Assembly: GCF_003412455.1 (NCBI RefSeq)
Contig: NZ_QTJU01000001.1
Location: 744,001-808,000 of the forward strand
DNA length: 64,000 nt
DNA from: Deminuibacter soli
GTDB lineage: Bacteria; Bacteroidota; Bacteroidia; Chitinophagales; Chitinophagaceae
Direction: 5' to 3'
Shown piece after piece: positions 27,961-61,394 of this stretch (its first letter is position 1; each line of letters begins with the position of its first letter). The position numbers and the translations under genes are program-made. The notes under the pieces are model-generated. The model made no database searches and was not told where the DNA came from. It saw only the letters and a list, made by a program, of their open reading frames with translations.

Positions 27961-27982
27961 TAAACCTGTAAAACACCTGTTC

Positions 27983-44344: not shown

Positions 44345-45469
44345 CTACGCTTCGTCGCTCCAAACTTTGGCGCCGGAAAAGCGGTTGCGTGGATTGATTT
44401 TGCGCGCCTGGTTACCGGTCTCGTCAACCTTGGTTTTGTTGCCAAGCTTGCCAGCTAAAGCAGCCGTGAGCGTATTTGACAGGTCGGTAATGGATTTCGT
44501 GAGGTCTTCCTTAGTCACTGCGTTTTTGGTCGCTTCGGTAATCGCGTTTTTGAAGGATTCAGGAACTTCTTTCAACGCATTACCTACAGCCTGATTAACC
44601 AGCTCCTGTATTTTTTCGTCAGTTGGCACCTGGTCTTTCAGCGTGTTCACAAGGCTGTCGGTAAAGCCTTTGAAAGCGTCCGTTACTGCAGCATCATCCT
44701 TTTTATTGGAGAGGCCCAGTTTTTCCAGCACGTTCTGCAGGCCCGCAGACACGGCTTCCTCTATTTTTTTGAGGTCCATATTGGAATTGTTTGATTGAAT
44801 GAATGAATTGTATGCTGTGAGCACTGATTTATTTGCATATTGCCAGTGCTCAGGCTTTATTGAATTTTTGAAAGTGGCCTGACCGGTTACGTTTTTTACA
44901 AACCCTTTTTCTTTGGCTTCTTTGCCGGTCATCCAGGTTTCTTTGTTCATCTGGGCAGAAATCTGTTCAGGCTCCTGGCCAGTTGCATTTGCGTAGAAGT
45001 CACGGATTTGGTTGTTGAACTTGCGCATTGTCTTGGCATAGTTCTCAATGATGTTGACATCGCCCCATATACCGCCGCTTACATTATGAATCATGAACCA
45101 GCTGTTTTCAGACATACTGCTGTTTTTGCTGGCCATAACGATGTACGTTGCAGCAGAAGCTACAATACCAATGCCCTTGGTATTAACCTTAACGCCCTTA
45201 CTCTGGAGTTCAACCAGGTAGTCATGCATTGCCATGGCATCGCCTACGTGGCCGCCGCCGGAGTTAACGTTAACGTTCAGCTCTTTCGGCTTTGCTGCAT
45301 CAATCTGATTCCTGAATGAACGAAATGATACTGAAGTTTCATCGCCCCAAAATTCGCGGAGAAGTTCCTGGGTAGGTGCGTCAACGATATCGCCATCGAT
45401 GTTGATATCGAGCACATCGTTGCTTTGATTTGCGAGGGAAAAAGTAAAACAGTGCAGTTGAGGCGTCAT
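44345..45469 (-). CDS. ClpP-like (S14) phage prohead protease with C-terminal scaffold region
   Basis: 374 residues. The N-terminal domain (about 15-185) is a ClpP-fold serine protease: NVNVNSGGGHVGDAMAM forms the strand and oxyanion region, Ser105 lies in GIGIVASAATYIVMA and His128 in ENSWFMIHNVSGG. The C-terminal ~170 residues are helical and charged (LKKIEEAVSAGLQNVLEKLGL, VTKEDLTKSITDLSNTLTAAL), fitting a fused scaffold that is cut during maturation. It is encoded before the capsid gene, as expected. An AT-rich palindrome and a -7-like box lie directly upstream. Confidence 0.88.
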   Translation of the reverse strand: MTPQLHCFTFSLANQSNDVLDINIDGDIVDAPTQELLREFWGDETSVSFRSFRNQIDAAKPKELNVNVNSGGGHVGDAMAMHDYLVELQSKGVKVNTKGIGIVASAATYIVMASKNSSMSENSWFMIHNVSGGIWGDVNIIENYAKTMRKFNNQIRDFYANATGQEPEQISAQMNKETWMTGKEAKEKGFVKNVTGQATFKNSIKPEHWQYANKSVLTAYNSFIQSNNSNMDLKKIEEAVSAGLQNVLEKLGLSNKKDDAAVTDAFKGFTDSLVNTLKDQVPTDEKIQELVNQAVGNALKEVPESFKNAITEATKNAVTKEDLTKSITDLSNTLTAALAGKLGNKTKVDETGNQARKINPRNRFSGAKVWSDEA

Positions 45470-45749: not shown

Positions 45750-46435
45750 GTCGTTGGTATGCTGAAGTTTGCGCCTTGGTAGGCAGTTTGAATAATAGTG
45801 GGCGTGCCGGTAGTGTTAATTGCCATGGCGGCATTTTGAAAGCCGGTAACTTTCGCAAAGCTGGTTCCATTGGCATTCAACGTTAGCCCGGTGTAGTTGC
45901 GGACCTCTACTGTTGAATTGCTGGTATCATTAATGGTAATAATTGTGGTGGTGTGGTCTTTCGCAGTAAAACACAGCGTGCCGGTATCATTCACTGTAAT
46001 CGAAATCGATGAATTGTCGAACGTTTTTATCTCAGCGAAGGCCGTATCGTTAACCTCCAGCACCAGAGAAGCGTTCCGGCCAACCCAAATATTAACTGCA
46101 TTTACACCGGTTAAAGTCACAGTAACCGCTGCGGTACCAATGATGGTAATGTCACCTGCAGGATTAAGCAGCGATACCGAACCTGTCGCATATATGCCAG
46201 CTGCATTCAATGCCGTTTGATCAACATCAGAAATTAACGCATCGGTGACGCCGCCACTTTTTAAAAGCCACAGCAGCGGGTTTATATCGACCGTGCTAAC
46301 GGCCATGGCGGCGGCAATCAAAGCCGGATAATCGCCCGCGTTAACTGCCTGGTGAAAAGCCGCACAGGTGCCAAGCGGCCGAGACAACAGCAGCACCTGC
46401 GCTTTTACTTCAGCGAATGTTAATGGTAACGCCAT
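45746..46435 (-). CDS. Beta-helix-like structural phage protein (229 aa)
   Basis: 229 residues. A helical start (LPLTFAEVKAQVLLLSRPLGTCAAFHQAVNAGDYPALIAA) leads to a long Thr/Val/Asn-rich beta repeat (TVTLTGVNAVNIWVGRNASLVLEVNDTAFAEIKTFDNSSISITVNDTG), a right-handed beta-helix pattern. No enzyme motif is seen. It may be a tail-tip or host-contact protein. It is encoded after the tape measure (stop/start overlap TAATG). Confidence 0.7.
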   Translation of the reverse strand: MALPLTFAEVKAQVLLLSRPLGTCAAFHQAVNAGDYPALIAAAMAVSTVDINPLLWLLKSGGVTDALISDVDQTALNAAGIYATGSVSLLNPAGDITIIGTAAVTVTLTGVNAVNIWVGRNASLVLEVNDTAFAEIKTFDNSSISITVNDTGTLCFTAKDHTTTIITINDTSNSTVEVRNYTGLTLNANGTSFAKVTGFQNAAMAINTTGTPTIIQTAYQGANFSIPTT

Positions 46436-49400
46436 TATAACCTCCCTATTTGTGATTGAATAGAATCCTTCCTTTGCTGCGCTGTCATTTCCCGGCTCAC
46501 CACCTGCACTTTGATGTTACGCACTTGCTGGGCAGTATCGGCGACCTGCTGGCTCGTGCTTGCCACCATGCTCTTTAATTCAGCCATTTCCCGAGCGTTA
46601 TATGCGCTGGGCTGATTGGCGGCAGTGCCGAGGAATGCACCGGGATTAAAGGGCGCTTGCAGGCGCTCGCCCAGCGGGAAATCACCCAGCGGCCGGTAGG
46701 CGATACCACCGCCGGCAAAACCAGGCACTCCGGCAGCAGCGAACGCCGCCGGGCCTCCCATTGCCCGCTGCTGCGATTCGTTCAGTATAACCTCACCCTT
46801 TTTTACCGTGGCAAAAATGTTGTCGCCGTTGGATGTGGCAGGCATGTTGGGATCTGTAGTTATCAGTCCATTGCCCACATCAGCAACGCGACCACCACGG
46901 GCAAACTGCGCGGCATTAATTCGGGTAACGTTCAGGCCAAAGTTTACCAAGGCCAGTGCAGCCTGCACGCCGTACATAATGGCGCCGGCAGCACCCAGGG
47001 TAGCGATGTTTAACGGGTTCGGAGCAAATGCAATCACCGCCAGGTTTGACAGCTGGGTGGCCAGGTTGATTTCCGCCTGGGCAATTTGCATTTTCTTATT
47101 TTTCTCGAATGCTTCTTTTTCAGCGGCCAGCTTTTTGGCAGCAAACTGTCGTTCGATTGTGTCCTGTTCTGCAGCGCTTTGAGCTTTGCCCAGCGTAACG
47201 CGTTTTTCGGCATCCAGCTGCCGTTCCTTCAGCTTCAGGCTATTCTCAATGCTTTGTCGCTCAACATCGAAATAGGATTGCATTGCGTTCTGAGCGGTAG
47301 CATATGTTTGCTGAAGTGTGTCGCCTAATACTTTCCTCAACTCCGCTTTTTTCTTGATATCATCATCAGAATCATTAGCATTTGGAACAAAGGCAGTTTT
47401 AAAGACGGAAGTTACACCGGCCCGAATCAGCCCAGGTACATCATTGATATTTTTAAAAAGGTCATCCTTGGTGGCATTAATAATGTTTTGCCTAAGCAGG
47501 TTTTGCAATTCAGCTATTTTCGACACGTACTTCTCGTAAAAGTCTGCATACTCTTTATCGCTGATCTGTTTTTTTGCCAGTAAAGATTGATATATAGGCA
47601 ATTGTTTTTCCATTGTAGCAGTTTCAATACTTAGTGTTGAAGCCTGCTGTTGTGTATCAATTTCGCTTAGGGCACTTTCCTTTTTATTGTTAGATTTCTT
47701 GCTATTTATTATACTTAGCCGCGCCGCGTCGAAAATTTGATTCGCTCTTCCTATTGCATCGTCTCCAAATTTCTGTTTATCTTTTATTTCCGCATTCAAT
47801 TCTCCTAAACGCTCTTCCTTTATCTGCTTTGTAATGGCCCTTATAGCCTGTGCCCTCTCCAGCTCATTATCCTTCGACTGCTGAACATATTTTCTTTCAA
47901 GCTCATTCATTTGGGTGTTGAAACCATGCTGAGCAGCCAGTAACTGAAAATTGGCTTCCTGCCGGGCAGCTGATCTCGCGCTTTCAGTCGAGTTGGGATT
48001 ATCAACAACAAGGTCCCGCTGCGCTTCAGCTGAACGCTTGGCCTGGTTAAGATCATCCTGAGCACGCTTGGCCAATATATCAAACAGCTTTTTGTTCGTC
48101 TCCTGTTCCTGGGTAATACGATCCAGTTGCAGTTCTGCGTACACTTTCTTTTCTTCTGGCTTTTGCTTGCCTTTGAGCAACGACAGTTTCTGGTCAATAT
48201 ACTTTTGATTAATGGTAAGCATGTTGCCCAGGTAAGTAGCCTCATCCACTTCGTTTTTAGTTCTCCTCAGCTTTTCTTCTGCGAGGGCTAAATCGCGCGC
48301 TGCGTCTATTTCTTTAAACTGGTCTTTCTGTTCTGCAGTTAGCTTGGAGGCGCCACCGGATGTTGGATTTTTAGGCTTTATTAAGTCCTGCACCTTTTTT
48401 TGGAGATCGAGCAGGTCCTTGTATTCCTTACTGGCCACTGCAGTAGATTTTTTCTGTGTTTCAATCTGCTGCAGCAACGTCTTGAAATCGGCCTCAGTAC
48501 CGTTGTTATCTACCAGCTCTTTAAACCGATCAAAAACACTCTGTTTAGGTGAGCTGCCCGCAGGCGCTGGTGTATTCTGTTGCTTATATAGACTTGCGTA
48601 TATTTTGGTAGCCTCATCTACCACCCTTCCCTGCTGCTTAATTTCCTCATTCAAGTTTCTTATGGCTGCGGTAAAATCTTTATCAGAGATTTTTGTTTTT
48701 CCGAATATGGCAATGGTTGCCTTATCCAGCCCATTAAGACTAAATGCTTCTTTTTCATCGTCGGTAAGCGACTGGTAAGTGCCGCCGCCGGTGCTCTTTT
48801 TTATTTCCAGCGATGTGCGAACATTCTGCAGCTGCACAAGCCTATTATACTGACTGCTTTGCGTTGCCTGTGCCGCCTCCAGGGTCGCTTTCTTTTCCAG
48901 GTTGCTATTATATTCCAGCAGCGCCTGGTTCAGGTTGCCAATATTTATTTTACCATCAACAAGTGTTTTCTGAAAAACCGGGTCAATGGTAATAAGGTCC
49001 TGCAGCGCCTTTCGCCTTGTTTGCTCCGAAATTGTCAGGTCTTTCACGACGTTGGCCAGTGTCTTCGCCTTCAGCTCCTGATCAGCTACTGCTTTGGCCA
49101 CCTGGGCCTGAATGTCTTTATTAAGCTGAAGTGCAATATTGTGGCGTTTAACTGCTTCAGAGGCATCATCCAGGCTTTTGCTGAATGCTTTAAAAGCCAC
49201 AGCACTTAACCCCAGCAGTCCCAGTATTATTTTGAGAGGCAACCCGCCAATGGTCACCCCAAACAACCGAAGTGTAGCGTTTGCTGCGGTAACAGCGGCA
49301 TTGAGCAACCACACCGCAGCTGTAAAAAGCGTTTGGGTAATGGTGATAGCCGCCAAAGCTATCCTGCCGGCCAGGAGTTGGACATTTACCAGGATGAGCT

Positions 49401-51426
49401 GTCCACGTTGAATAATTAACGCCTGATTAGCCACAGCCCAGCCTGCTGCGTAAAAGGCCAGCACGGTTATGATAGGGCCCAAATTGGTAAGGATAAGGGC
49501 CAACAAGCTTGCAATTGACCCCAGCAACACCTGAAAAGTCCTGTTTGCGCCAATGAGCTCAAATTGTTTGGCAATACGGTCCAACGTGGCGGCAAAAGTG
49601 TGCTGTTTAATTTCGTTGGCGGCAAGAATTGATGCCTGATCGCCGAATGCGGCATTTGCATCACGTACACGCTTACGCATATACTCTGCATTACCGGCGA
49701 TATCACCCAGCACGCCCACCACCCTTGCGCCATGGATACCGGCAGCAGTGAAAGCACTGGCAATTTCTTCCAGGCTGGCCTTATCCTTTTTGAGGCCTTC
49801 AGCTACCTGAATAAGCGCCTCAACCGGGCTTTCATTCAACGTTTTTGTGAACTCAGCCACGCTTTTGCCCGCAACAGCAGCATACTTCGGAACGTCTGCA
49901 AAAATCTTTATGATTAATTGTGAAGAAGCTGTTGATGCCGTTTCAGAGCGCTGCCCCAGTTCCTGGATGGCGGCGCCAAGCCCCAGCACGTTCTGGATAG
50001 ACACACCGGTGATGCCGCGCACACCCGCAAGACGTTCGGAAAAGTCGATCAGGAACCTACCGGTAGCAACGCCCGATGACGTCAGCTTTTGGATTGCAGC
50101 GCCGATATTCCCGATGTTATCTGCAGTTACGTGCTTATCCTCGCTGTACACGTTAACGAGTTTCACCAGGGAAGAAACAGCTTCATGCGGGTCACCGGCT
50201 TCCTTACCCAGTACCACAAACAGCTGATCCAGTGCCTTCGTCACGCCAGTGATTTGATCTGCAGCAACACCCTTCTTTGCCACAATGGTTGCGATGTCCA
50301 CAAGGCTGGCCAGCGATGTGCGGGTATCCAGCTTCTTAAGGCTTTCCACCAGGTTTTCCGCAGCATCTTTGGACCCATGCAGGTAAATCTGCAGCTGCCC
50401 GATACTATCCGACAGCTCGGCGTTTTGGTGTATTAAATTGCGCACGCCAGACACTGCTGCTTGAAAACCAACATACCCGAGCAATACCTGTGCAATGTCA
50501 TTTTTTAAATTCTTAAACCCCTGGCTAATGCCGGCGACAACCTGCGAACCGATGCTATTGGTGTCATTCAACGTTGAATTGATTGCATGCAGGTTCGCTT
50601 CCAGTTTCTGCTGGTGCTCAATGTTGTGTTTGAGCTCGGTGTCAATTTTTGAAAAGGCATCGCCGCCGGCGGCCTGTGCCTGTTTATAGGCTACAACGAG
50701 GTCCCTGTTCTTTTGTATTATTTGCCCAAGCTGATTATTGATGTCATCCCTTTGCCGCTTCAACACGTCACTCAGGCCAAGATTTTTGAGCGCATTGAGA
50801 ATACCGGTCTTATACTCTCCCACCAGCGTGCCATCCGGTGACAATGTTCGGCTAAACTCATCCAGCTTTTTCTTCGCGTCAACCGCTTCCCTTTTTACTT
50901 TTTCAAAGCCAGCTGAATCGCCGGTGCTTTTATCAAACAACCGGTAAGCCTCCTGTGCCTCACGAAAAGCCTTCAATAAGGCGTAATAGTTTTCTCCTAC
51001 CGCTTTCGCCGAATCAGCCTGCTGCTTATTGCGCCGTTGCTGGTTAGCAATCTGCCGGTCCAGCTCTTTATCCTGATCCGACAGGGATTTTGCTCGCACC
51101 GCAGCAGCCTTGGCCGCCTGGAGCTCCGCGTCTGCACTGAGCTTTTCCGCGCGGGCCAGAATCTCCGCCTCCTTGGCCGATTGCTGCCGCTGCTTATCCA
51201 GGTTCTTCATTGCCGTTTCCAGCTCCGCAATGCGTGCTGTCAGTTTGGAAACGGCTTCAGCGTTACCGGCAGCAACAGCCTTTTGCAGCTGCTCATCCGT
51301 TTTGCGCTTGGTCTGGTCCAGCTTATTAAACGCCGCGGTGAGTGCCTGTACGTTCTTCAACGAAGATTCAGTGCCTTGCACCTTTATATCATACACACGA
51401 TTCACTAATGACTGGTTCTGTGCCAT
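46435..51426 (-). CDS. Phage tail tape measure protein
   Basis: 1663 residues, the longest gene in the window. Long coiled coils fill the first 300 residues (LTARIAELETAMKNLDKQRQQS) and the last third (KLKERQLDAEKRVTLGKAQSAAEQDTIERQF). A TP901-type segment lies in between (GVAADQITGVTKALDQLFVVLGKEAGDPHEAVSSLVKL). A run of hydrophobic segments follows around residues 625-745. The C-terminus contains a Gly/Ala-rich tail with RGGRVADVGNGLITTDPNMP. Length scaling predicts a long flexible tail. With no sheath gene visible, a siphovirus is likely. Confidence 0.93.
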   Translation of the reverse strand: MAQNQSLVNRVYDIKVQGTESSLKNVQALTAAFNKLDQTKRKTDEQLQKAVAAGNAEAVSKLTARIAELETAMKNLDKQRQQSAKEAEILARAEKLSADAELQAAKAAAVRAKSLSDQDKELDRQIANQQRRNKQQADSAKAVGENYYALLKAFREAQEAYRLFDKSTGDSAGFEKVKREAVDAKKKLDEFSRTLSPDGTLVGEYKTGILNALKNLGLSDVLKRQRDDINNQLGQIIQKNRDLVVAYKQAQAAGGDAFSKIDTELKHNIEHQQKLEANLHAINSTLNDTNSIGSQVVAGISQGFKNLKNDIAQVLLGYVGFQAAVSGVRNLIHQNAELSDSIGQLQIYLHGSKDAAENLVESLKKLDTRTSLASLVDIATIVAKKGVAADQITGVTKALDQLFVVLGKEAGDPHEAVSSLVKLVNVYSEDKHVTADNIGNIGAAIQKLTSSGVATGRFLIDFSERLAGVRGITGVSIQNVLGLGAAIQELGQRSETASTASSQLIIKIFADVPKYAAVAGKSVAEFTKTLNESPVEALIQVAEGLKKDKASLEEIASAFTAAGIHGARVVGVLGDIAGNAEYMRKRVRDANAAFGDQASILAANEIKQHTFAATLDRIAKQFELIGANRTFQVLLGSIASLLALILTNLGPIITVLAFYAAGWAVANQALIIQRGQLILVNVQLLAGRIALAAITITQTLFTAAVWLLNAAVTAANATLRLFGVTIGGLPLKIILGLLGLSAVAFKAFSKSLDDASEAVKRHNIALQLNKDIQAQVAKAVADQELKAKTLANVVKDLTISEQTRRKALQDLITIDPVFQKTLVDGKINIGNLNQALLEYNSNLEKKATLEAAQATQSSQYNRLVQLQNVRTSLEIKKSTGGGTYQSLTDDEKEAFSLNGLDKATIAIFGKTKISDKDFTAAIRNLNEEIKQQGRVVDEATKIYASLYKQQNTPAPAGSSPKQSVFDRFKELVDNNGTEADFKTLLQQIETQKKSTAVASKEYKDLLDLQKKVQDLIKPKNPTSGGASKLTAEQKDQFKEIDAARDLALAEEKLRRTKNEVDEATYLGNMLTINQKYIDQKLSLLKGKQKPEEKKVYAELQLDRITQEQETNKKLFDILAKRAQDDLNQAKRSAEAQRDLVVDNPNSTESARSAARQEANFQLLAAQHGFNTQMNELERKYVQQSKDNELERAQAIRAITKQIKEERLGELNAEIKDKQKFGDDAIGRANQIFDAARLSIINSKKSNNKKESALSEIDTQQQASTLSIETATMEKQLPIYQSLLAKKQISDKEYADFYEKYVSKIAELQNLLRQNIINATKDDLFKNINDVPGLIRAGVTSVFKTAFVPNANDSDDDIKKKAELRKVLGDTLQQTYATAQNAMQSYFDVERQSIENSLKLKERQLDAEKRVTLGKAQSAAEQDTIERQFAAKKLAAEKEAFEKNKKMQIAQAEINLATQLSNLAVIAFAPNPLNIATLGAAGAIMYGVQAALALVNFGLNVTRINAAQFARGGRVADVGNGLITTDPNMPATSNGDNIFATVKKGEVILNESQQRAMGGPAAFAAAGVPGFAGGGIAYRPLGDFPLGERLQAPFNPGAFLGTAANQPSAYNAREMAELKSMVASTSQQVADTAQQVRNIKVQVVSREMTAQQRKDSIQSQIGRL

Positions 51427-51429
51427 GGT

Positions 51430-53883
51430 CTACTGTTGAGGTATATCAGACGCCAAACACATCAGCGGCTGGTATTTGGTTTCGAAAATGTCGGTTGTGT
51501 TGGGGGTTCCGCTTACACTGTTTGCGGATGGGTATACAGCATTGAAGTCATCTGCAGTAATAGGTGACCACTTACGCAAGCTGCACTGCGTGCTTTGGTC
51601 GTTACTGGGCCGATAATTCTGTATTTCAACCAGCTCCCAACGCTGGCCAGTGGCTATGATGTGCTCCCGGTGCAGAATATTGCCCACATCCTCATTGTTC
51701 AACCGGAAGCTAGTAGTATAGTATTGGCCATTGCGCATGATAGCCATGCGCTGCAGGAAGAAGCGGCGTGTGAGGCCAACTGCATGCGCGCTACCAATCA
51801 GCTCGTCACAATAAGAAAGGATTGGATCATTTTCCCCGCCGGCGTTATAATTAACAGAAAATAGGAATGGAATGGTTGTGCGGTTTGTGCCGTTAAAGCG
51901 CCAGCCACCAACGCCGCTCACTTCACCTTTGTACCAGGCTATTTTCGGCTGAAATGTATTCGCCGCTTCGCTGGCAGAGGTGTTACTGATGTTTTCCGGA
52001 ATTATACAAATCAACTGCGGTGCCTTACCGGTAATTCCTTTCCAGTTTGTTTCAACGTAATGCATGCAAGGTGAAAAGAAACTGTTCTCCATTTCCGTCA
52101 CATCCTTGTTGAACCGGTCGGGTAATACATATTTGCCAGCTCCCAGCATGCTCTTCGTAATAGCCCAAGCGTTCAATGAATTGGTAATGGTATCCTGTTT
52201 ATACTGGTAGTTGGTTTGAATTCGGTCTGCCACCACTTTCAGGCAGCCGTCTGAAGCATCGTCACGGAAACGGAATACAAATTCCCGGTTGGCATCGCTG
52301 TACAGCTGCAGCTTTGAGGCCTGGCTAAGATCCTGTTTAAAGTTCCAATCCAGGTAGTTGCCATTCATGTAACCTCCTGTTTTGTTTGCTTGGCTGTGCA
52401 CCAGGCTGTATGCATGCATGGGCTCAATGTAAAGCACTTTGTTTACCGGATCTGCCTGCGGCTGAAGATTGAACAGATCAATCAGGCCTTTAAAGAAGTC
52501 TGTGAATTTGTATTGCTTAAAGAATGTGTAATCAGAGAAATTTATCAGGGCGGAATTATCCAGAGGCGTTTTAAAATACTCGAATTTAAACGATACAACA
52601 CGATACTTCAATTCAACGCTACCCAGCTTTGAATCGAACATATGGGCCAGCAGCCGGGCACTTATATAGTCGCCTTTCGAAACCGTGGTGGAAAAAAAAG
52701 CAGTGTTATCACCTGCGAACGCCCCGCCGCCAATCGTGATGTAGGCAGCATCAACCTGGACCAGATAATCGAATGAGCTTCCCGTGATCTCATTTACAAC
52801 AGGCACACCATTCTTATACCAGTAAACAGCAACATTGCCATCGCTGTTACCCGTTGCATGGCCTGAATAATTTAGTTCTAATGATAGCCCGACCCGCTGT
52901 TTTCCAAAATCAGCGTTGTTTTGATACGTCCAGCGCATTTCCTGATTGTTCTCTATGTAGCTGTAATCAGCGAACGCCGGTCCGTTGGCTATTGCATTGT
53001 TGTCAAACGTACCGACCAGTGAAGGGTCAACCAGCACATTTGCCGGTAGCCATTTATCTTGGCTGCCACTTTCATAAAGGTAATTGCCGGCATCGTTGAC
53101 GTTTTTGGTCATTGCAACAAACTTGTGAATATCTTGCTTCGTGCCGTTACTGGACGGGAAGGCACCAAAAGTCCAGGGCATTACCATGCGCCTGAAATAA
53201 TCAGTATCCATAAAGTCAGATTGTATCCGGTACCCGATGCTTTTAAAAGCATTAAACAGTATCCAGTAAACCGAAAGCGAAGGGCATAGGTACGATGGGT
53301 CTGTGTTGTAATGCGCGTTACGCTGGTCTGTGTTGTCCAGCGGATCGAAGGCAATATTATCAAAGGGCAGCATGTACCGCACCGGGGCGAACACGTAGGG
53401 CAACTCTGCACTACGGCCGTCGAATGACCAGCTGGCCATGATGTTAGCCGTGGAGTAGCCGAAACTGATACCTTTCAAAAAGTCGTACAGGGTGGTGTCT
53501 TTCAGCGCAATGATCCAGTCTGCATTATTCCCATAGATATTCATTTCGTATTGCTCAGGCCTGTCCGTATGCGTTGCACTGGTAAGTAATGCCCTGCCTA
53601 CCAGTACCTCCACGCCACCTTCCTCAACAACACACTTCCTGAAGGTTTTAAAGGCCTCTCCGGAAGTGAGGTCCTCAATACCAGCGTTATGAAAGGTGTT
53701 GAGCAGCCGGTCATTGGTAAGCGTGGCCGGCAGCTGCACGCTCAATGCCTCCGCTGACGTTTTTACCTGGAAATTGTCAGGATCTTCCAGCTTATACGAT
53801 ATTGTTACTGGAAAATCATCAACACTGTTAATGTCTGCCTGCTGGTCGTCGATAAGCAGCCGTATGTTACTGGTCTGTGGCAT
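51430..53883 (-). CDS. Large tail-associated protein (817 aa)
   Basis: 817 residues, encoded directly before the tape measure. It opens NIRLLIDDQQADINSVDDFPVTISYKLED, a strand-rich domain typical of distal-tail or tail-hub proteins, followed by several beta-sandwich regions with many aromatic residues. A C-terminal segment reads GGENDPILSYCDELIGSAHAV. No peptidase or glycosidase motif is recognised. It would be a baseplate, hub or tail-tip protein, in the place where tail-associated lysozyme or fibre-base proteins occur in other phages. Its start overlaps the preceding stop by 1 nt. Confidence 0.72.
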   Translation of the reverse strand: MPQTSNIRLLIDDQQADINSVDDFPVTISYKLEDPDNFQVKTSAEALSVQLPATLTNDRLLNTFHNAGIEDLTSGEAFKTFRKCVVEEGGVEVLVGRALLTSATHTDRPEQYEMNIYGNNADWIIALKDTTLYDFLKGISFGYSTANIMASWSFDGRSAELPYVFAPVRYMLPFDNIAFDPLDNTDQRNAHYNTDPSYLCPSLSVYWILFNAFKSIGYRIQSDFMDTDYFRRMVMPWTFGAFPSSNGTKQDIHKFVAMTKNVNDAGNYLYESGSQDKWLPANVLVDPSLVGTFDNNAIANGPAFADYSYIENNQEMRWTYQNNADFGKQRVGLSLELNYSGHATGNSDGNVAVYWYKNGVPVVNEITGSSFDYLVQVDAAYITIGGGAFAGDNTAFFSTTVSKGDYISARLLAHMFDSKLGSVELKYRVVSFKFEYFKTPLDNSALINFSDYTFFKQYKFTDFFKGLIDLFNLQPQADPVNKVLYIEPMHAYSLVHSQANKTGGYMNGNYLDWNFKQDLSQASKLQLYSDANREFVFRFRDDASDGCLKVVADRIQTNYQYKQDTITNSLNAWAITKSMLGAGKYVLPDRFNKDVTEMENSFFSPCMHYVETNWKGITGKAPQLICIIPENISNTSASEAANTFQPKIAWYKGEVSGVGGWRFNGTNRTTIPFLFSVNYNAGGENDPILSYCDELIGSAHAVGLTRRFFLQRMAIMRNGQYYTTSFRLNNEDVGNILHREHIIATGQRWELVEIQNYRPSNDQSTQCSLRKWSPITADDFNAVYPSANSVSGTPNTTDIFETKYQPLMCLASDIPQQ

Positions 53884-55166
53884 TAAGTACGGATTGAATA
53901 GTTCTGGTTACCTAATTTGAATTGCATAACGAACGTGTATACATAGTCGCCCGAGGCCTGGTTTTTCTGTTTGTCAATCTTGGACGAGTTGACAACAATT
54001 GGCAAGTACGAATCTGGCTGCCCCTCGGTACCGGTCCATTCTACAAAGGCCATTGGCGAATCTTTGAGCTCCTGAAGCCATGACAGTGCATCTTCGGGGT
54101 ACTGCCTGCTACGTACCTCATACGTATCATTGCTGCGGACGTTGAAGCGCTGCACTGAAGTAGCCGTTTTAGTCAGCGGGTAAGGCAATGGCCGCACATA
54201 CTCGTCGTTTTTGTCTTCATGAGTGATCTGTGCTTTTGGAAAGGTAACTGCGTCAATGGTACCCAGGTAATTGAGGAAGTGCACCCGGCAAATATCATTA
54301 TCAGCATCTATCACTTTGTTTACACAGGTGGTTAGAATTAGCGTTGAATCTGCGTTCCAAAGCTCCAAAAAGTATTCTTCAATAATAGACCAGTCCAGGG
54401 AATCGAACAGCGGCCGCAGGTTCTTAGGACCATTGGGTAATGAATATACACCAGCCTGCAAAGTGTCACCTACCAGTGTTTCTCGTTCGTTATAAACGCC
54501 TGTTCCTTTTATCTTGTATTTTATTCGCAGGAGCTTTAATACCTGGGCCTGCGTGCTTACAAATGGATAACTGTCTGAATCATTCAGGCCAACATTGTAC
54601 CGGTATGGCCGGTGCGTTAACGGTAATGCATGCGTGGCAGCACCAGGTGTGAACGTGTTGGCAAACTGGTAACGCAGGTGCGTGGCCAAGTCCTGATTGT
54701 CTGTATGCTGCAGCTGGCAGTTTAATACAAAAAAACTGTTCGATTGTGTGCCCGTACCTGGTACAGGCGATGTCCCACCGGTACCCTGAACAGGTACCGT
54801 GCCTTCCGGTACAATAAACCCGTTTGGATCATATCCGCTACTTCTGAACCGGCAAAAGGTGGTTGCCATTGCATGCTGATACCAGTATATACCGGGATAG
54901 CCGTTATCCGCTATTGACGACTGCAAAAACTCCTGCGCGGCATCCTCGATATCGAAAAACCAGTCGCTGTCTGTGCTATTAAGCTGAGCATACTGAGTTT
55001 TAGCTACGGTTTTATAATACGTGCCGCCAAAATAAATATCGCAGTATACAACGGGTGGCACGGCCTGGCCGTCGGTCCTTTGCGCCCGCACAGTGAGCGC
55101 TACGGGCCGGTATGCTGCAGTCAAAGCGTTTGCCGCCGGCTGTGTTATGATGGATACGATTGCCAT
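53883..55166 (-). CDS. Tail/tail-tip structural protein (427 aa)
   Basis: 427 residues, unrecognised by family name. The start IITQPAANALTAAYRPVALTVRAQRTDG is an Ig-like strand pattern. The middle has a Pro/Thr/Gly-rich hinge (EGTVPVQGTGGTSPVPGTGTQ), and the C-terminal part (FAVEWTGTEG-like segment; VNSSKIDKQKNQASGDYVYTFVMQF) looks like a beta-sandwich. Location between small neck genes and the 817-aa protein fits a distal tail or upper-baseplate component. The start overlaps the upstream stop by 1 nt. Confidence 0.65.
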   Translation of the reverse strand: MAIVSIITQPAANALTAAYRPVALTVRAQRTDGQAVPPVVYCDIYFGGTYYKTVAKTQYAQLNSTDSDWFFDIEDAAQEFLQSSIADNGYPGIYWYQHAMATTFCRFRSSGYDPNGFIVPEGTVPVQGTGGTSPVPGTGTQSNSFFVLNCQLQHTDNQDLATHLRYQFANTFTPGAATHALPLTHRPYRYNVGLNDSDSYPFVSTQAQVLKLLRIKYKIKGTGVYNERETLVGDTLQAGVYSLPNGPKNLRPLFDSLDWSIIEEYFLELWNADSTLILTTCVNKVIDADNDICRVHFLNYLGTIDAVTFPKAQITHEDKNDEYVRPLPYPLTKTATSVQRFNVRSNDTYEVRSRQYPEDALSWLQELKDSPMAFVEWTGTEGQPDSYLPIVVNSSKIDKQKNQASGDYVYTFVMQFKLGNQNYSIRT

Positions 55167-55657
55167 TACACTATCCCGCTTTTTGTTTTATTGAATTCAG
55201 CATCCAGCTCACCAATAACCACGTTATCGATCATGCCGGTATACCTGTTATCGTTTTTGTAAAAGGTGTCAGCGACTGATTCCAGCCTGTTCCCGGTCTT
55301 GGAGAATTGGTAGCTGTTGCGTGTGGGCATCCCTTCCTTTTGCTGCTTTTTCAGTATCGCAATAGCCACCTTTGTGGCCTGCTTTCCTTTGTATCCCATG
55401 CGCAGCTGTACATACCTGGTCATGGCTGCAATGGAAGTGGCATCAATAGCGATATGGTTACTAGGAACGCCCTTCTCCAGATCTTCGATATAACCCAGTG
55501 CAGTCGCCTGCAGGTCTACACCGTCCGGCAATTGCGCAATAGCGTCATGCAGTGACTGCTCCAGAGCGCCAGTAAGAAAGTGGCCCTGCAGGCGCAGCTC
55601 CTGCTTAATGTTGCTGATAATTTCCAGGTTTAACTGGCTGAGTTTACCGGTATTCAT
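55166..55657 (-). CDS. Tail-completion-like protein (163 aa)
   Basis: 163 residues, mainly helical with a basic middle (YVQLRMGYKGKQATKVAIAILKKQQKEGMPTRNSYQFSKT). Size, charge and neighbourhood resemble HK97 gp10-type tail-completion proteins, but no clear signature is seen. It overlaps the 427-aa gene start by 1 nt and the upstream small gene by 4 nt, showing tight coupling. Confidence 0.6.
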   Translation of the reverse strand: MNTGKLSQLNLEIISNIKQELRLQGHFLTGALEQSLHDAIAQLPDGVDLQATALGYIEDLEKGVPSNHIAIDATSIAAMTRYVQLRMGYKGKQATKVAIAILKKQQKEGMPTRNSYQFSKTGNRLESVADTFYKNDNRYTGMIDNVVIGELDAEFNKTKSGIV

Positions 55658-55917
55658 CGTTCTTGCAATTGAAGGTTTTCAAGATGCGGTTTAAGCCTGC
55701 GCCATTGCTCCAGTATGTGCCCGCGGCATTTGTGACAACCAAAGTCGTCGAACTCGCCGGCCGGGTCCAGGAACTCTTCGTACACATCGAAGAGGTATTC
55801 CATGGGGCTGTTTTGCTCCTGCAGATTCACGGCCTTATCGATAAACCTTTCCTGCAGTATTATTTTCCTGATTCGCGCCGGCACCCGCCTGGCCGCTATG
55901 GTCAAAAAGTCTGGCAT
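55654..55917 (-). CDS. Small Cys-containing protein in the tail module (87 aa)
   Basis: 87 residues with a CxxC pair (FGCHKCRGH) and a nearby His, possibly a zinc knuckle. The first half is a basic helix (LTIAARRVPARIRKIILQERFIDKAV), the second acidic. Unrecognised. The ATG at 55917 overlaps the stop of the upstream gene by 1 nt, and the gene overlaps the next by 4 nt. Confidence 0.6.
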   Translation of the reverse strand: MPDFLTIAARRVPARIRKIILQERFIDKAVNLQEQNSPMEYLFDVYEEFLDPAGEFDDFGCHKCRGHILEQWRRLKPHLENLQLQER

Positions 55918-56588
55918 CAGTGTTTGTGTATTGGGTGAATTTCTAATGGGGGTACGGTGATCTTGTTCAGTACATCATCAGGATAATCATTCAGCTGGCA
56001 ACCGTCCGCATACATGTTGATGAGAAACTGTAGTGATACACCGGTAATATCGTCGCTGCCGAATCTGCTGATGCGGGCAATCTCCGCTGGTCGGTCGAAA
56101 TCAACGTTCAGCACACTGCGCATGCTGACAGGCACTCCTTTCAACAGGGCGGCACTTTTCAGGATTACCTGCTGCAGCAACACCCAGAAATTGCCGGCAC
56201 ACTCCTTCATGTCCTTCCAATCTTCCCACACCTGGTGCTTGCTGGTGTTGGTCGCAGCATCGGGCGCCTTCAGCTGGTTGGTGCCGGATACAAACGACTT
56301 GCAAAGGAAAAACAGGGTGAAGCTGAACTGCTCCCAATCAGCGCCATTTACCTTTACCAGCCTACTGCGGGGTGTGATGCACACACACAATGGGTATTTC
56401 TGCAAAGGCGTTTTGCTGCCACTTGCCGGATCGCTTATGTAGGCGCCCAGGTTATTTGTATTGAGGTCATACCCATAATCAGGCGAAACATGGTACCGCC
56501 CCTGCATTACAGATGACTGCAAAAGCAACTGCTTAAACAGCCCTTTATCCCGGTCGTATAAAAAAAGTTCATCCATTGTTGTCTTCAT
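55917..56588 (-). CDS. Hypothetical tail-module protein (223 aa)
   Basis: 223 residues. ATG 56588 overlaps the membrane-protein gene by 20 nt; ATG 56576 is an alternative. It is mixed alpha/beta (PLCVCITPRSRLVKVNGADWEQFSFTLFFLCKSF; EDWKDMKECAGNFWVLLQQVILKSA). The C-terminus has a strand/turn pattern (DDITGVSLQFLINMYADGC). Not recognised; possibly a neck or tail-tube component. Confidence 0.6.
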   Translation of the reverse strand: MKTTMDELFLYDRDKGLFKQLLLQSSVMQGRYHVSPDYGYDLNTNNLGAYISDPASGSKTPLQKYPLCVCITPRSRLVKVNGADWEQFSFTLFFLCKSFVSGTNQLKAPDAATNTSKHQVWEDWKDMKECAGNFWVLLQQVILKSAALLKGVPVSMRSVLNVDFDRPAEIARISRFGSDDITGVSLQFLINMYADGCQLNDYPDDVLNKITVPPLEIHPIHKH

Positions 56589-56931
56589 TTAAGATGCCTA
56601 AACGAGCTTTGCGATCGCAATTACATTTTCTCTTCTGCCCGTCCCGCAGGAAAATCAGCAGCGTGCTAAGCACCACGTTAATACCGGCAGCGATGGCCAG
56701 AACAAACGGCACTGATGTTAGGTGCACTTCCCAAAAGCCGACCCTGTTGCCCAGATACAGCACCAGGTAGCCCCACCAGGGTGTCATACATGCAGGGCAG
56801 TCATAAATAGGCTTACGCAGCCATACAGGTGCATTTTCCAGCAGGTAATGCACCCAGGACAGAATCATTCCATCCCAAGTACAGGCGTGCAGGAAAAGCA
56901 CAATGAGGGCAATTGATAATATTACACTCAT
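56569..56931 (-). CDS. Small phage membrane protein with CPxC motif (120 aa)
   Basis: 120 residues with an N-terminal membrane segment (VILSIALIVLFLHAC), a second around residues 53-66, and a third around 73-94 (VPFVLAIAAGINVVLSTLLIF). Between the first two lies IYDCPACMTPWWGYLVLYLG, a CPxC motif like that of DUF1360-type small membrane proteins. A second cluster, KCNCDRK, follows the last helix. It is odd in a tail gene cluster. A redox or host-envelope function is possible; the role is unknown. Confidence 0.65.
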   Translation of the reverse strand: MSVILSIALIVLFLHACTWDGMILSWVHYLLENAPVWLRKPIYDCPACMTPWWGYLVLYLGNRVGFWEVHLTSVPFVLAIAAGINVVLSTLLIFLRDGQKRKCNCDRKARLGILNEDNNG

Positions 56932-57356
56932 GCTTCACCCTGGATTAAGTGAATACCTGGTTTGTTCTGCATAATCTTGAACCGCTTGATCAGCTGGTCG
57001 CGCACCGGCGCAACCTGGGCTTCCCATTGAGCACCTATGGCCGCGTTGAGCTTTACTAAATGGGCGAACTGCTGAGGGCTTATATGGAAGTCAGCCGGAG
57101 TGCGCGCATCAAGATTGTTTGCCAGCACCATCACCACGTTGAGGTTTATTCCCTGCGGTATGGTTTCAAACAACTGCTCGTATTTATCCGCTGGTACCTG
57201 CAGCTGCTGGATACTGGCCTTGCACAATGCCTCTTTGGCAAACCCATACCATTCACTTAGTTCGGGTGTCCAGGACATAAAGTGTTTTTCCAGTTCGTCG
57301 TTAAGCTGCTGGCCAAATTCGATTTGTTGCTGTCTGTTCAATTGTAGTTGTTGCAT
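56928..57356 (-). CDS. Hypothetical protein after the tail chaperone (142 aa)
   Basis: 142 residues from ATG 57356 (MQQLQLNRQQQIEFGQQL), which follows the preceding stop after 1 nt; an in-frame ATG at 57380 would overlap that gene. Strongly helical and Gln-rich. No domain is recognised. The position after the two-frame tail-chaperone gene is where small chaperone-associated or neck proteins are encoded. It overlaps the membrane-protein gene by 4 nt. Confidence 0.65.
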   Translation of the reverse strand: MQQLQLNRQQQIEFGQQLNDELEKHFMSWTPELSEWYGFAKEALCKASIQQLQVPADKYEQLFETIPQGINLNVVMVLANNLDARTPADFHISPQQFAHLVKLNAAIGAQWEAQVAPVRDQLIKRFKIMQNKPGIHLIQGEA

Positions 57357-57357
57357 G

Positions 57358-58262
57358 TTATGTTGTGGTTTTGTAGGCATTTTTTACCGCGACATCGAAG
57401 TCGCGTTTCTCGCTGGCAAAAGTCAATACCTTAAAAGCCTTTGCCTGTTTTGCACACTCAATACTGTCAAGGCCGCTGCCCGGTATGTCAAAAACCTTTG
57501 TCTCTGCGATGGAAGAAAGGAAGTTTATCCATCCCCATTTCTGATAGTGTTCCGTTAATTCAGGTTTGGCATCTCCTGCACTTCCTCCTGCGAATACGCT
57601 AAAGTGGTCATCCAGGTATGCACACAGATGGTCAAAAAAAAAGCTACCTGGCACACGTAAGGCATAGGTAGCTGCTGCATCAACGTTAAGCGCTCACCGC
57701 CTTCAATTACCATGTCATCCGTAAACGCCTCGTCCTTTTTCCTGAAGTAAACCGCGCACAGATATGGCATTGCCTCCCAGCGGCCTTTCCCCAGCGTGTG
57801 CAGTTGCCGCATTACTTCTTTCGCCGTGATTACCTCGTTGAATGACATCGAGCTCGCCGGGTTGATCTTAAAGTCCTGGATAGTCCATTCATCTCCATTC
57901 CACAGGACTGACGCCGGCAGCTGCTGCGCCTCGGTGAATGCCTGCTGCAGGATTGAACGAAATAGCCGGTACCGGTCAAGCAAAGGCTGTATGAGTGGCG
58001 CCTGCCGCACGTCGAAAAGGTCATGCTTGGTCCAGAAGGAAAACCAGGCCAGCGCCTCATTGTCGATATGGGCATCGATATCCATTTGCCGCAACAGGTC
58101 GGTATCATCCTGATCCCCATCATATTCCTTTTTGGCAATTACTTGCATGGCCTCATCCAGCTCACGGCCATATTGCTGGTGATATTCCAAGTATTGGCCC
58201 AGCGATATATCAGCAAGGTCGAAAGGCACGTCGTGCAGCTTATCGTTGATGGTTACCTGCAT
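57358..58262 (-). CDS. Tail assembly chaperone, long frameshift product (gpGT-like)
   Basis: If ribosomes slip -1 at the T-rich heptamer (57636-57642 on the minus strand), the 235-codon frame (58262-57555) continues in the frame ending at 57358 and gives a fusion of about 301 residues (209 from frame 0, then 92). The overlap has no stop in either frame across the slip site, and the downstream frame has no convincing start of its own. This is how many long-tailed phages make G and GT chaperones that load the tape measure. The mechanism is inferred; no product has been seen. Confidence 0.6.
57555..58262 (-). CDS. Tail assembly chaperone, short product (gpG-like)
   Basis: 235 residues. The start VTINDKLHDVPFDLADISLGQYLEYHQQYGRELDEAM fits tail-chaperone N-termini, with several helices rich in Gln, Leu and Asp following. 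Residues 208-209 (Phe-Phe) are encoded at the slippery run; the last 26 residues come after it. The gene stands between a coiled-coil protein and small neck genes. It is some distance upstream of the tape measure, farther than usual for a G/GT pair. Family assignment is therefore only moderate. Confidence 0.65.
   Translation of the reverse strand: MQVTINDKLHDVPFDLADISLGQYLEYHQQYGRELDEAMQVIAKKEYDGDQDDTDLLRQMDIDAHIDNEALAWFSFWTKHDLFDVRQAPLIQPLLDRYRLFRSILQQAFTEAQQLPASVLWNGDEWTIQDFKINPASSMSFNEVITAKEVMRQLHTLGKGRWEAMPYLCAVYFRKKDEAFTDDMVIEGGERLTLMQQLPMPYVCQVAFFLTICVHTWMTTLAYSQEEVQEMPNLN
57633..57644 (-). promoter_or_regulatory. -1 frameshift slippery site (T_TTT_TTT)
   Basis: Minus strand reads GCT TTT TTT TTG in frame 0. 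This contains the canonical heptamer X_XXY_YYZ with all bases T, positioned so that -1 slippage enters the frame ending at 57358. Nine T residues occur in a row. A clear downstream pseudoknot was not found by eye. Confidence 0.6.
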
Positions 58263-58264
58263 GG

Positions 58265-59041
58265 TTAACCCTCCATGCTTTTCAGTTCTTCGGTAAGGCT
58301 TATTTCATCGGCATGCAGTGCGTCCATCTTGGCGGCCAGCTCGTCAACCTTTTGTTTTGCTGCTTTTTTCTGCGCAGCAGTGAGACCGTCCGCATTGGCT
58401 TCAGATTGTGCTTTGTTGAACGCTGGGTATGTTACATTCTTTTGTGCTGCGATGTCTTCCAGTAAGCCTTTTATTTCCGCAATCCTGGCTGCCTGTTCAG
58501 CGGCCAGGACATTGGGATTATCTGCTGCTGCAGCAATCCTGGCCGTTTCAGCGATGGCTTCGCGCACTGTGTTTAAAAAGTTACCATCAATCTTCGCCGG
58601 TTCGGTGTCTGTAACCGGTAGTCCGGCTTTTTTACCCACAGCACGCAGCTCGATTTCCGAATATGTATCCAGCAATGCATCATTTTCCATGCTCGGCAGC
58701 AGCTGGTACAATTCTTCAGCTTTTGCTCTAAGCTCTGACACAGCTGCCTGTTCAGCGGTCTTAACAGCTTCTGCAGGCGTAAGAGAGGCCCCTACAGCGT
58801 GCGTACTGGCAACAGGCCTGCCCAGTACATGTGTTAACGGTTTACGGCCGCCAGGCTCGGCGGTAGCCAGGTCTGCACCGACCAATGCAGAAAGCATGTT
58901 GATTTCTTTGTCCAGGCTGCTTGTGGCGCGCAGGCAGAATGTGCGGGTGGTGGAGTGTGCCAGGTATTGCTCGATATCTGCCTTAGCAGTTTTCAACGAA
59001 ACAATAGCAGCTTCGATGTTTGTTTTCTGTGGATGGCTCAT
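58265..59041 (-). CDS. Ala-rich helical late protein (258 aa)
   Basis: 258 residues, strongly helical and Ala/Glu/Lys-rich (EAVKTAEQAAVSELRAKAEELYQLL; AAKQKVDELAAKMDALHADEISLTEELKSMEG). No domain is recognised. It is the first gene of the second late transcription unit, after a terminator and a promoter at 59074. It could be a tail or scaffolding component. A short Gly/Pro segment (AEPGGRKPLTHVLGRPV) breaks the helices. Confidence 0.65.
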   Translation of the reverse strand: MSHPQKTNIEAAIVSLKTAKADIEQYLAHSTTRTFCLRATSSLDKEINMLSALVGADLATAEPGGRKPLTHVLGRPVASTHAVGASLTPAEAVKTAEQAAVSELRAKAEELYQLLPSMENDALLDTYSEIELRAVGKKAGLPVTDTEPAKIDGNFLNTVREAIAETARIAAAADNPNVLAAEQAARIAEIKGLLEDIAAQKNVTYPAFNKAQSEANADGLTAAQKKAAKQKVDELAAKMDALHADEISLTEELKSMEG

Positions 59042-59200: not shown

Positions 59201-60790
59201 TTATATTTGGTCCAGTATGGACTTTGGCCCCGGTGTGGCTGTGCGGATATTGCCAGTGTTGAAGTCGAAGTGTACGCGCAGCATGGAGCCGTCGGAAAAG
59301 TCTGGCGACCGGCCGCGCAGCAGGGTCTTCTGTTCTGACTTGGGATTGATTTGCTTTTTGCCGTATTCATCCTGTTTCGTACTACGAATGGCACGGTGGT
59401 CTTGTTTGATAAGGTCCCGTACATCGTACATCCTACCCTTCAGCTTTATCTTCAATCCAGGGTAGCCATCGATATAAACGTTGTCGGTGGACAGGGCCAT
59501 GCTTACCTCATCGTTGTTTACCTTCTCGGCATACCGGTAGTAGAATTGGGTTTTCCTGTTTTTGTAGTTCTCCTTTACCATTTCGCCTCGGTCATTTCTG
59601 GTGCCGGCATCTTCCAGCGGCGGGGCGTCACCGGAAAAGCCGATATAGCCGCCCAGCTTAACCACACCGCCACCCACGCCGTCCTGGTCAACGATTACCT
59701 TTCCTTTCGGTATAGCGTAGCGCTCACGCTCCTTTTCGATTACATCCACTGTTTCCTGGGCGTCGGACTTTGAGAGTATAATCAGCTTAACTACCTTCCA
59801 TCCGTACCATATCCATATCGTTTCCAGGTCTTGACCAAACCGGGCGGCATCGCAGGTGATGTAGCGCTGATTGGTATTGGATGGGTAGACGTTCGAAAAC
59901 ATATCAGTCAGGGCTTTGGCATTGAATAGACAGTTCGGGTCTATCTTTATTTTCCAGTTTCCACCTAGCAGGCGTATCTTTTCCACCTCATCCAGCGCCA
60001 TCAGGTTGCCCAGGTATTCCGGATTTTTCTCGATGAGCTTTTTATTCTCATAGATGCTGCCGGGAATGAATGTGAGGGATTTAACAAAGTGCTCGGCATC
60101 GATCACCTGGTTTGCCGGGTTCTCAAATATGTGCGGGCATTTTGATATCACCTCCTCCTTGGTATCTCCCCAGACAAACTCGTCGTTATCAACCAGGAAG
60201 TAGCGTATTACTCCAATACGCTCAGGAATCGGATAACCGTAACGCGGGTTGAGCTCACCATTCTCCAGGCGCTCGTCCTGGTCGATCCACCATTCTATCA
60301 TATCAGCAACAAAGCTATCAGGGTCCGGGTTGCATGATGACCGTACGTAAGGCTTAACGCCGCAAACGGACCGGTTGCGGGAAAGCATGTAGATAAATTG
60401 CTTTTTGGTAAAGTGGGTAAGCTCGTCGAAGATGATGAGGCAGTACTGTGCACCCTGGTGCTCATATATGGTAAACTCATGCTCCAGGTGGCTGAACTTG
60501 AATAGCGCACCGGATGGGAAGGTCCACCGAAGCTTCTGCTGGTTCGGTATGCCTGCGAACAGCGGGTACAGCTCGCTGGCTTCATCCCACAGGCCACCCG
60601 GGTTGGTAATCTGTACGGTGGTCCTGCGGAAAAAGATAGCGTTGAAGCGTGCCACATCTTTATGCCTGAGCGGCTCCAGCAGCTCCGCAAAGGTTTTGCC
60701 CACGCCGGCACCTGAGCCACCCACCACAATGTCCGCGGATGATGACAAGAACTTTTCCTGAAAACCAGGTTGAGGCCTAATTTCCCGCAT
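59201..60790 (-). CDS. Terminase large subunit
   Basis: 529 residues: the ATPase and nuclease that packages DNA into the head. Walker A is GGSGAGVGKT (residues 24-33), an unusual variant with extra glycines. Walker B is CLIIFDELTHF (Asp121/Glu122). The RNase-H-like nuclease domain follows, with YITCDAARFGQD (near 318) and VIVDQDGVGGG (near 375) supplying metal-binding Asp residues. It overlaps the end of terS by 14 nt and has its own terminator just downstream. Packaging mode (cos or pac) cannot be told. Confidence 0.93.
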   Translation of the reverse strand: MREIRPQPGFQEKFLSSSADIVVGGSGAGVGKTFAELLEPLRHKDVARFNAIFFRRTTVQITNPGGLWDEASELYPLFAGIPNQQKLRWTFPSGALFKFSHLEHEFTIYEHQGAQYCLIIFDELTHFTKKQFIYMLSRNRSVCGVKPYVRSSCNPDPDSFVADMIEWWIDQDERLENGELNPRYGYPIPERIGVIRYFLVDNDEFVWGDTKEEVISKCPHIFENPANQVIDAEHFVKSLTFIPGSIYENKKLIEKNPEYLGNLMALDEVEKIRLLGGNWKIKIDPNCLFNAKALTDMFSNVYPSNTNQRYITCDAARFGQDLETIWIWYGWKVVKLIILSKSDAQETVDVIEKERERYAIPKGKVIVDQDGVGGGVVKLGGYIGFSGDAPPLEDAGTRNDRGEMVKENYKNRKTQFYYRYAEKVNNDEVSMALSTDNVYIDGYPGLKIKLKGRMYDVRDLIKQDHRAIRSTKQDEYGKKQINPKSEQKTLLRGRSPDFSDGSMLRVHFDFNTGNIRTATPGPKSILDQI

Positions 60791-61394
60791 TCTTCACCTC
60801 CCTTCCGTTGGATGGCATAATTAAAACGGTGGCATTGGTTTCTGTTTGAATAGGTCCGCCGTCCCTGCCGGTGTGGCGTGCTTCCACCGGTGCATTATAA
60901 CCCATGATTTTACAGATCGCCTCCAGCGCGGTAAGCTTGTTGAGCAGCTTTACTTTCTGCGTTGTGCCCAGCACCATACCGCTTTCCGGCTCTTTTACGT
61001 CGTAGGATTCGATGCCAGCCATTACTGCTGCAACATCCTCGTCCAGTTCATGTATGCTTTTCAGGCCACTGTCAACGTTATAGGCTTTGCGGATATCGAA
61101 GAAGGCAATTTTGGCGAGCTCTTCCAGCACGCGCTCCTTGGTGATGTGAAGTTTTTTTGCGGATTCGGCAATAACGGCTTCCTGTTCACGCCTGCGTATG
61201 GCTTCAGCTTCGGCCAGTCTTTTATCTACTGTTGGCCTGGCGGCTGTCATCCACTTTTCGACAGTGGATTTACTGACACCGTAAGTTTCAGTAAGGTTCC
61301 GTACTATTTCCTTGGTTTGCGTGCCCAAAAAAAGAGCATCAGCCACCAGTTCCACACCTTTTTCCCTCGATATTTTACGGTTTCCTTTCTGCAC
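60777..61394 (-). CDS. Terminase small subunit
   Basis: 205 residues from GTG 61394 (MQKGNRKISREKGVELVADALFLG). The N-terminal helix-turn-helix (LGTQTKEIVRNLTETYGVSKSTVEKWMTAARP) would bind phage DNA. A middle coiled region (AEAEAIRRREQEAVIAESAKKLHI) follows, then a helical oligomerisation part (KLLNKLTALEAICKIMGYNAP). It is the first gene of the late region in transcription order. A -7-like box lies 4 nt before the GTG and an AT-rich palindrome just upstream, so this transcript may be leaderless. Confidence 0.9.
   Translation of the reverse strand: MQKGNRKISREKGVELVADALFLGTQTKEIVRNLTETYGVSKSTVEKWMTAARPTVDKRLAEAEAIRRREQEAVIAESAKKLHITKERVLEELAKIAFFDIRKAYNVDSGLKSIHELDEDVAAVMAGIESYDVKEPESGMVLGTTQKVKLLNKLTALEAICKIMGYNAPVEARHTGRDGGPIQTETNATVLIMPSNGREVKNAGN

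Follow-up and report, generated by a model that had tools for sequence, protein, structure and literature searches.

The nine-T run and the two frames

A gene on the minus strand of the window (the whole 64,000-nucleotide stretch of DNA analysed here) raises the question of how one phage gene comes to have two products, and whether the ribosome or RNA polymerase makes the longer one. The sequence-only reading had placed a -1 frameshift site of the known tail-chaperone class there. The gene probably encodes a gpG/gpGT-like pair of a tailed-phage prophage that is made mainly by transcriptional slippage, as judged from sequence comparison, in a bacterium of the family holding Chitinophaga and Taibaiella.

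The 0 frame of this gene (58262-57555, 235 codons), which specifies the short, gpG-like product (AlphaFold2 model with a mean pLDDT of 89.9), reads GCT TTT TTT TTG at the joint with the second frame. On the minus strand, positions 57633-57644 read GCTTTTTTTTTG, in which the nine Ts (57642..57634) lie in phase 2 of the frame that begins at 58262, so that the heptamer T_TTT_TTT (57642..57636), on which a ribosomal alternative would depend, is in phase; the run also holds T_TTT_TTG, which overlaps it. A -1 shift at the run leads into a frame that ends with the stop at 57358 (57358..57636, 92 residues and the stop) and contains a conserved WGWxxFLxxIA-like stretch, giving a fusion of 209 + 92 = 301 amino acids. 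The in-phase heptamer, the -1 joining of the 235-codon frame to the frame ending at 57358 and the 301-residue product are thus all borne out by the sequence, as is the tail of 27 codons claimed beyond the slip site, which consists of 26 residues and a stop after TTT TTT (57555..57635). This 0-frame tail is 19-55 residues long in relatives and poorly conserved. Runs of nine Ts are not rare in the window by themselves (2 observed against 4.4 expected from shuffled sequences), and the case for the site therefore rests on its conservation. The other run of nine in the window is an A9 on the plus strand (30328-30336), inside a 935-codon frame (27926-30733).

In the proposed mechanism, normal reading would yield the short product of 235 amino acids, composed of an N domain and the poorly conserved tail, whereas an mRNA that gained one U on the nine-T template would take standard translation into the -1 frame and yield the long product of 301 amino acids, in which the shared N domain would be followed by the conserved 92-residue C domain. 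If the analogy with gpG and gpGT of phage lambda holds, the N domain would act as a coat on the tape-measure protein, the C domain would bring in the tail-tube protein, and slippage would set the ratio of short to long product.

Gene neighbourhood

The genes from the terminase to the tape measure are on the minus strand. The next gene (56928..57380, 150 amino acids), a homologue of which is found in part of the relatives, starts within the end of the -1 frame, with an overlap of 23 nucleotides, so the gene spacing fits the long product. The upstream neighbour (58265..59041, 258 amino acids), which is found just upstream of the chaperone-like gene in many relatives, is preceded by the genes for the terminase large subunit (59201..60790) and small subunit (60777..61394). 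A block of five genes (51430..56588; 223, 87, 163, 427 and 817 amino acids), the order of which is kept in most relatives with enough flanking sequence, lies between the chaperone-like gene and the gene for a tape-measure protein of 1663 amino acids (46435..51426, PhageMin_Tail). The chaperone-like gene is therefore not adjacent to the tape measure, from which it is separated by about 5.9 kb and seven genes, in agreement with the earlier remark that it is several genes away; gpG/gpGT-type chaperones typically sit between the tail-tube gene and the tape-measure gene, beside the latter. In relatives with enough flanking sequence the gene is upstream of the same tail-side block, and in several it comes right after the terminase and the 258-residue gene. 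The head genes of the window are 3' of the tape measure, with a portal-like gene at 40111-41514 and a ClpP-type head protease gene at 44345-45469, an order unlike that of lambda.

Conservation of the run among homologues

Of 394 genomes searched at family level, 7 gave a match, among them the window's own genome and one doubtful case; at class level the own genome alone matched (1 of 395). Scans of genomes and viral contigs yielded a first set of 36 loci, 30 of them split, with the second frame at -1 to the first, and six with one frame; the split locus L028 matches the window gene exactly and represents the window's own phage. Exactly nine Ts in the same phase are present in 30/30 split loci, and the alignment of homologous prophages that had been suggested as a check finds both frames and the heptamer conserved throughout these 30, with six fused lineages as the exceptions. 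Two further scans added nine contigs, of which eight are split, all with nine Ts, and one is fused. After six near-copies were dropped, 32 of the 38 split loci of the enlarged set were used, falling into 31 lineages less than 80% identical to each other and 12 groups less than 50% identical. All 31 of these lineages have exactly nine Ts in phase; no run of T7, T8 or T10 occurs at the joint among the split loci of both sets, and the median pairwise identity among the first 26 split loci is 39%. The base after the run is G in 31 of the 32 loci and A in the remaining one, which belongs to a split lineage (L092/L107) with TTA in place of TTG.

The constraint on the run is apparent also in codon usage. 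Phenylalanine codons elsewhere in the split genes are TTT in 47% of cases (307 codons upstream and 190 downstream), and at two conserved phenylalanine positions in the same -1 frame the codon varies (15 TTT, 10 TTC and 1 ATA at one; 8 TTT and 18 TTC at the other; 26 loci), but the run ends in a TTT codon in all 26 of those loci and in 32/32 overall. The difference of this last codon from the two control positions is significant (Fisher test, 3e-4 and 7e-8), with P values that treat as independent a set of lineages whose independence is partial (12 groups at <50% identity). The observation of a frameshift site in the window gene is confirmed at the level of sequence, and the recoding looks programmed rather than the product of mutation or assembly error.

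Fused relatives and the direction of change

Six lineages (L023, L034, L035, L036, L037 and L074), at most 49% identical to one another, consist of a single frame and lack the run at the joint; L024 and L036, which do not differ in the chaperone-like gene, are counted once. The position of the first phenylalanine is occupied by A, S, A, Q, L and A in the fused proteins, and that of the third by Y in four of the six. In a maximum-likelihood tree with 26 split and 5 fused proteins (31 in all, L074 having been found later), T9 genes occur on either side of the midpoint root, and the supported branches need at least three changes between the split and fused states. Fused genes are inside split groups on this midpoint-rooted tree, so fusion looks derived, and three fusions of an ancestrally split gene are apparently the simplest reading; the three changes could instead be one gain and two losses, and the midpoint root leaves the direction from split to fused unproven. 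Fused homologues had been named in advance as a finding that would count against the site: they do exist, in six lineages, yet those on the tree are nested within split groups.

A separate short paralogue of the N domain accompanies the main gene in three of the six fused lineages (L036, L037 and L074) and in one of the 31 T9 lineages (L038; Fisher test, 0.01), a count limited by flank length, in that the sequences of L035 and L044 stop no more than about 0.8 kb from the gene. The paralogue is about 1.2-1.6 kb downstream of the main gene (at 8206 in L036/L024, 8449 in L037, 8482 in L038 and 7518 in L074) and in L036, L037 and L038 it lies between the homologues of the 87- and 163-residue genes. 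The second gene may supply the short form once the slip is lost.

The fused lineage L023 (G122 contig C4, about 223.7-236.6 kb) has primase-like and ATPase-like genes and a terminase-small-like gene, all recognised by eye, and its own tape-measure gene of 1174 amino acids, and no homologues of the window's tail block were detected within 6 kb of it; the element is perhaps a satellite or a degraded phage.

Ribosome or RNA polymerase

Chaperone frameshifting of the lambda type is textbook ribosomal recoding that sets tail assembly. Like lambda gpG/gpGT, the window gene has one start, a short and a predicted -1 extended product, a shared N domain and a conserved C domain; it differs in that no sequence similarity to lambda gpG/gpGT was found, in that it is not adjacent to the tape measure, and in the joint. 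The longest homopolymers at the joints of four control chaperones are four bases in lambda and N15 and six in LfeSau and EH-TP1, and the slip site of N15 is annotated as 7 nucleotides, compared with nine Ts in the window gene. T_TTT_TTT needs seven Ts and T_TTT_TTG needs the last six Ts and the G, so neither needs all nine, and the constraint covers the whole run rather than the codon-phased heptamer alone. With nine Ts conserved rather than seven, no stimulator found and a run of the length known for RNA-polymerase slippage, a simple fit to the known class of ribosomal heptamers is not supported. Of the fit to that class which the sequence-only reading had seen, the -1 joining, the programmed recoding and the gpG/gpGT-like architecture stand; the plain ribosomal heptamer lacks such support, given nine invariant Ts.

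Stimulators of ribosomal frameshifting, which are usual in bacteria though not indispensable, were looked for on both sides of the run. Downstream windows of 26 loci, folded without pseudoknots, have mean z values of -0.03, -0.41 and 0.03 compared with -0.15, -0.24 and -0.21 in controls, and no Shine-Dalgarno-like element is visible by eye in 26 upstream stretches. A study of Bacteroidia translation states that ribosomes of this class do not recognise Shine-Dalgarno sequences (PMC9976891). Away from the site, in 371 kb of the loci, runs of 7, 8 and 9 number 90, 44 and 6 for A and 41, 19 and 2 for T (Fisher test, 5e-4), and in the whole host genome, coding and non-coding together, they number 2328, 482 and 48. 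The fall-off at nine could reflect replication errors. According to PMC5009743, nine As or Ts are enough for RNA polymerase to slip efficiently in vivo, and PMC1088944 reports that selection against runs becomes visible at nine in the coding regions of a large share of bacterial genomes. Cases of transcriptional slippage named in these two papers (PMC5009743, PMC1088944) include Thermus dnaX, Shigella mxiE/spa13 and IS elements with 9A or 9T. Such systems share with the window gene about nine As or Ts at the joint and a constraint on run length, but the known ones are cellular, plasmid or IS genes, whereas the window gene is from a phage; a literature search, covering the accessible portions of open-licence papers, found no phage tail chaperone with transcriptional slippage. 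Taken as a comparison of sequences, these observations suggest a slip mainly by RNA polymerase, perhaps with a contribution from -1 slipping of the ribosome on the heptamer within the run.

Classical -1 ribosomal frameshifting at T_TTT_TTT, T_TTT_TTG or both, the extra Ts then forming two tandem slip positions, is rather unlikely. It has in its favour that every T9 includes a T_TTT_TTT, which is in phase in 30/30 split loci, and that the direction is the same as in lambda; phage P2, moreover, uses T_TTT_TTG. With both heptamers in the run, ribosomes slipping at one of them, or at the two together, could keep all nine Ts fixed, and tandem ribosomal sites could in this way mimic a constraint on the whole run. 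In E. coli, U_UU.Y ranks second among tetramers (PMC4066793). Against these points, neither heptamer alone accounts for nine Ts that are invariant in 31/31 lineages, the downstream sequence has no structure above control in pseudoknot-free folding, no Shine-Dalgarno-like element precedes the run by eye in a class whose ribosomes are described in PMC9976891 as blind to such sequences, and the base 3' of the run varies. Far less probable, to the point of being barely credible, is a frameshift mutation, a phase-variable homopolymer or an assembly error in a gene whose true form is one frame: homopolymers are error-prone and one-frame homologues exist in six lineages, but the run has the same length in 31/31 split lineages, with neither T8 nor T10, and the fused genes lack the run and are nested in split groups on the tree. 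Assembly error, phase variation and decay were accordingly rejected on the conservation of T9 and the tree.

Identity and fold of the protein pair

No credible match to the window protein was found in Pfam, in PHROG or among PDB sequences. The match to phrog_9021 (E 0.00065 on the C part, 0.005 on the fusion) is to a family without function and was set aside. INPHARED contains no detectable relative of the window protein and none of the N part of L051; an INPHARED match to the C part of L051 is at chance level, and a match in G125 from the family-level genome search (E 7e-4, 97 residues of a 473-residue frame) is likely due to chance as well. Fold searches of the PDB gave no match, the second of them without any Z >= 5.

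The N domain, common to the short and long forms, is well folded in the models, and the fused protein of L023 is predicted with a mean pLDDT of 92.3 by AlphaFold2. Compared with predicted viral proteins, the L023 model has 19 matches at E <= 1e-3, all uncharacterised or unnamed, including a protein of Nonlabens phage P12024S; the first match with a named function is N15 GT, at rank 30 and with a non-significant E of 0.067 (probability 0.94, TM 0.34/0.38). The model of the short form finds the P12024S protein again (E 0.0019), and neither a named chaperone nor N15 GT is among the 50 matches listed for it. Sequence families being silent, the gene is said to work like gpG/gpGT rather than to belong to their family; that it acts like them is proposed by analogy and does not imply membership.

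The chaperone identity is inferred from the architecture, from the weak fold match to N15 GT and from L023, in which the tape-measure gene begins about 0.8 kb after the fused chaperone-like gene; the short paralogue, seen in three of six fused but one of 31 T9 lineages, also speaks for this role. It is unlikely, if conceivable, that the recoding is programmed but the pair is another virion-assembly or structural protein in two forms. Such an identity would suit a protein with no credible match in Pfam, PHROG or PDB and none at Z >= 5 in the PDB fold search, encoded at a distance from the tape measure; it is opposed by the architecture, by the N15 GT match, by the place of the gene between terminase and tail block in relatives, by the nearby tape measure of L023, and by the terminase that adjoins the gene in the structural relative P12024L.

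Parallels in other Bacteroidota phages

Seven Bacteroidota phages were inspected, of which P12024L and Flavobacterium phage 6H were picked through the fold search, and B40-8, Flavobacterium phage 11b, Riemerella phage RAP44, P12002L and Cellulophaga phage phi18:1 by hand and non-systematically, two of these five having a run. In P12024L (NC_018272), a gene right after the terminase has nine Ts, an open -1 frame and a KWGWxxTF stretch. This gp40 region of P12024L and P12024S is a structural relative whose KWGWxxTF resembles the WGWxxFL of the window protein, but the run is in another codon phase, sequence searches with the window protein did not find the region, and it is annotated as hypothetical proteins. 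In Inhavirus, T9 and the open -1 frame are present in 12/12 loci; the first and ninth T of this run are also forced by coding. At the joint of phi18:1 an A9 precedes the tape measure, and at that of 11b one precedes the next long gene. No A or T run of eight or more was found at the expected joint in P12002L, RAP44 or B40-8 (the last without its final 929 bases near the tail genes), nor was such a run found at the expected joint in 6H, where the -1 frame of gp10, a weak fold match, contains a C-like stretch but the run is no longer than T6 and a stop intervenes, and an A8 occurs at the far end of the C-like stretch, before the next gene. In RAP44 (L131, 15391-15113), gp17 and gp16, encoded upstream of the tape measure in frames that differ and overlap, have no long run and are possibly an ordinary frameshift chaperone.

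The tail chaperones of 11b and of the Cellulophaga phages phi18:1, phi12:1, phi17:1 and phi10:1 have a run of 8-10 bases where two frames join, immediately ahead of the tape-measure gene or, in 11b and phi10:1, of the next long gene, and are likened to the window gene by this layout; their runs are of A, not T, and phi18:1, phi12:1 and phi10:1 need a change of -1 or +2 nucleotides rather than +1. The C domains of 11b and phi18:1 match each other, and that of 11b has weak matches (E 0.004-0.005) to named tail chaperones of Lactobacillus and Enterococcus phages. Joints of the 11b type have A9 (48 loci) or A10 (32 loci) in the best 80 of 189 relatives. The second frame is -1 in the 78 loci with a full upstream frame, a number that leaves out L199 and L203, in which the contig ends within that frame; the efficient ribosomal motif A_AAA_AAG occurs in phase in 3/78. 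The second frame of phi18:1 and phi12:1 (A9) is +1 and that of phi17:1 (A10) is -1, the C domains being 99% identical; phi10:1 has A8 at the joint, before the next long gene. A -1 ribosomal slip does not readily account for the direction of the shift and the difference between A9 and A10 in the phi18:1 group. mRNAs with A8 or A11 would serve both frame relations. The A10 of phi17:1 (L136), set against A9 in the near-identical phi18:1 and phi12:1 (L133, L135), is possibly a sequencing error.

Three families have a run of about nine bases at the joint, namely the family of the window gene (T9), Inhavirus (T9) and the 11b/phi18:1 type (A8-A10). It is evenly poised whether the recoding that sets the chaperone ratio has, in Bacteroidota tailed phages, passed from the ribosome to RNA polymerase on several occasions, in at least three chaperone or chaperone-like families. 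If it has, what is conserved is the pair of proteins rather than the way they are made, and a connection of the translation style of the hosts, which make no use of Shine-Dalgarno sequences, with the mechanism of recoding could be tested in the cultured phages P12024L, phi18:1 and 11b. Annotators should in that case look for A or T runs of about nine at chaperone joints; in the phage records examined, the parts of the joint are annotated as separate, mostly hypothetical proteins, or are partly missed.
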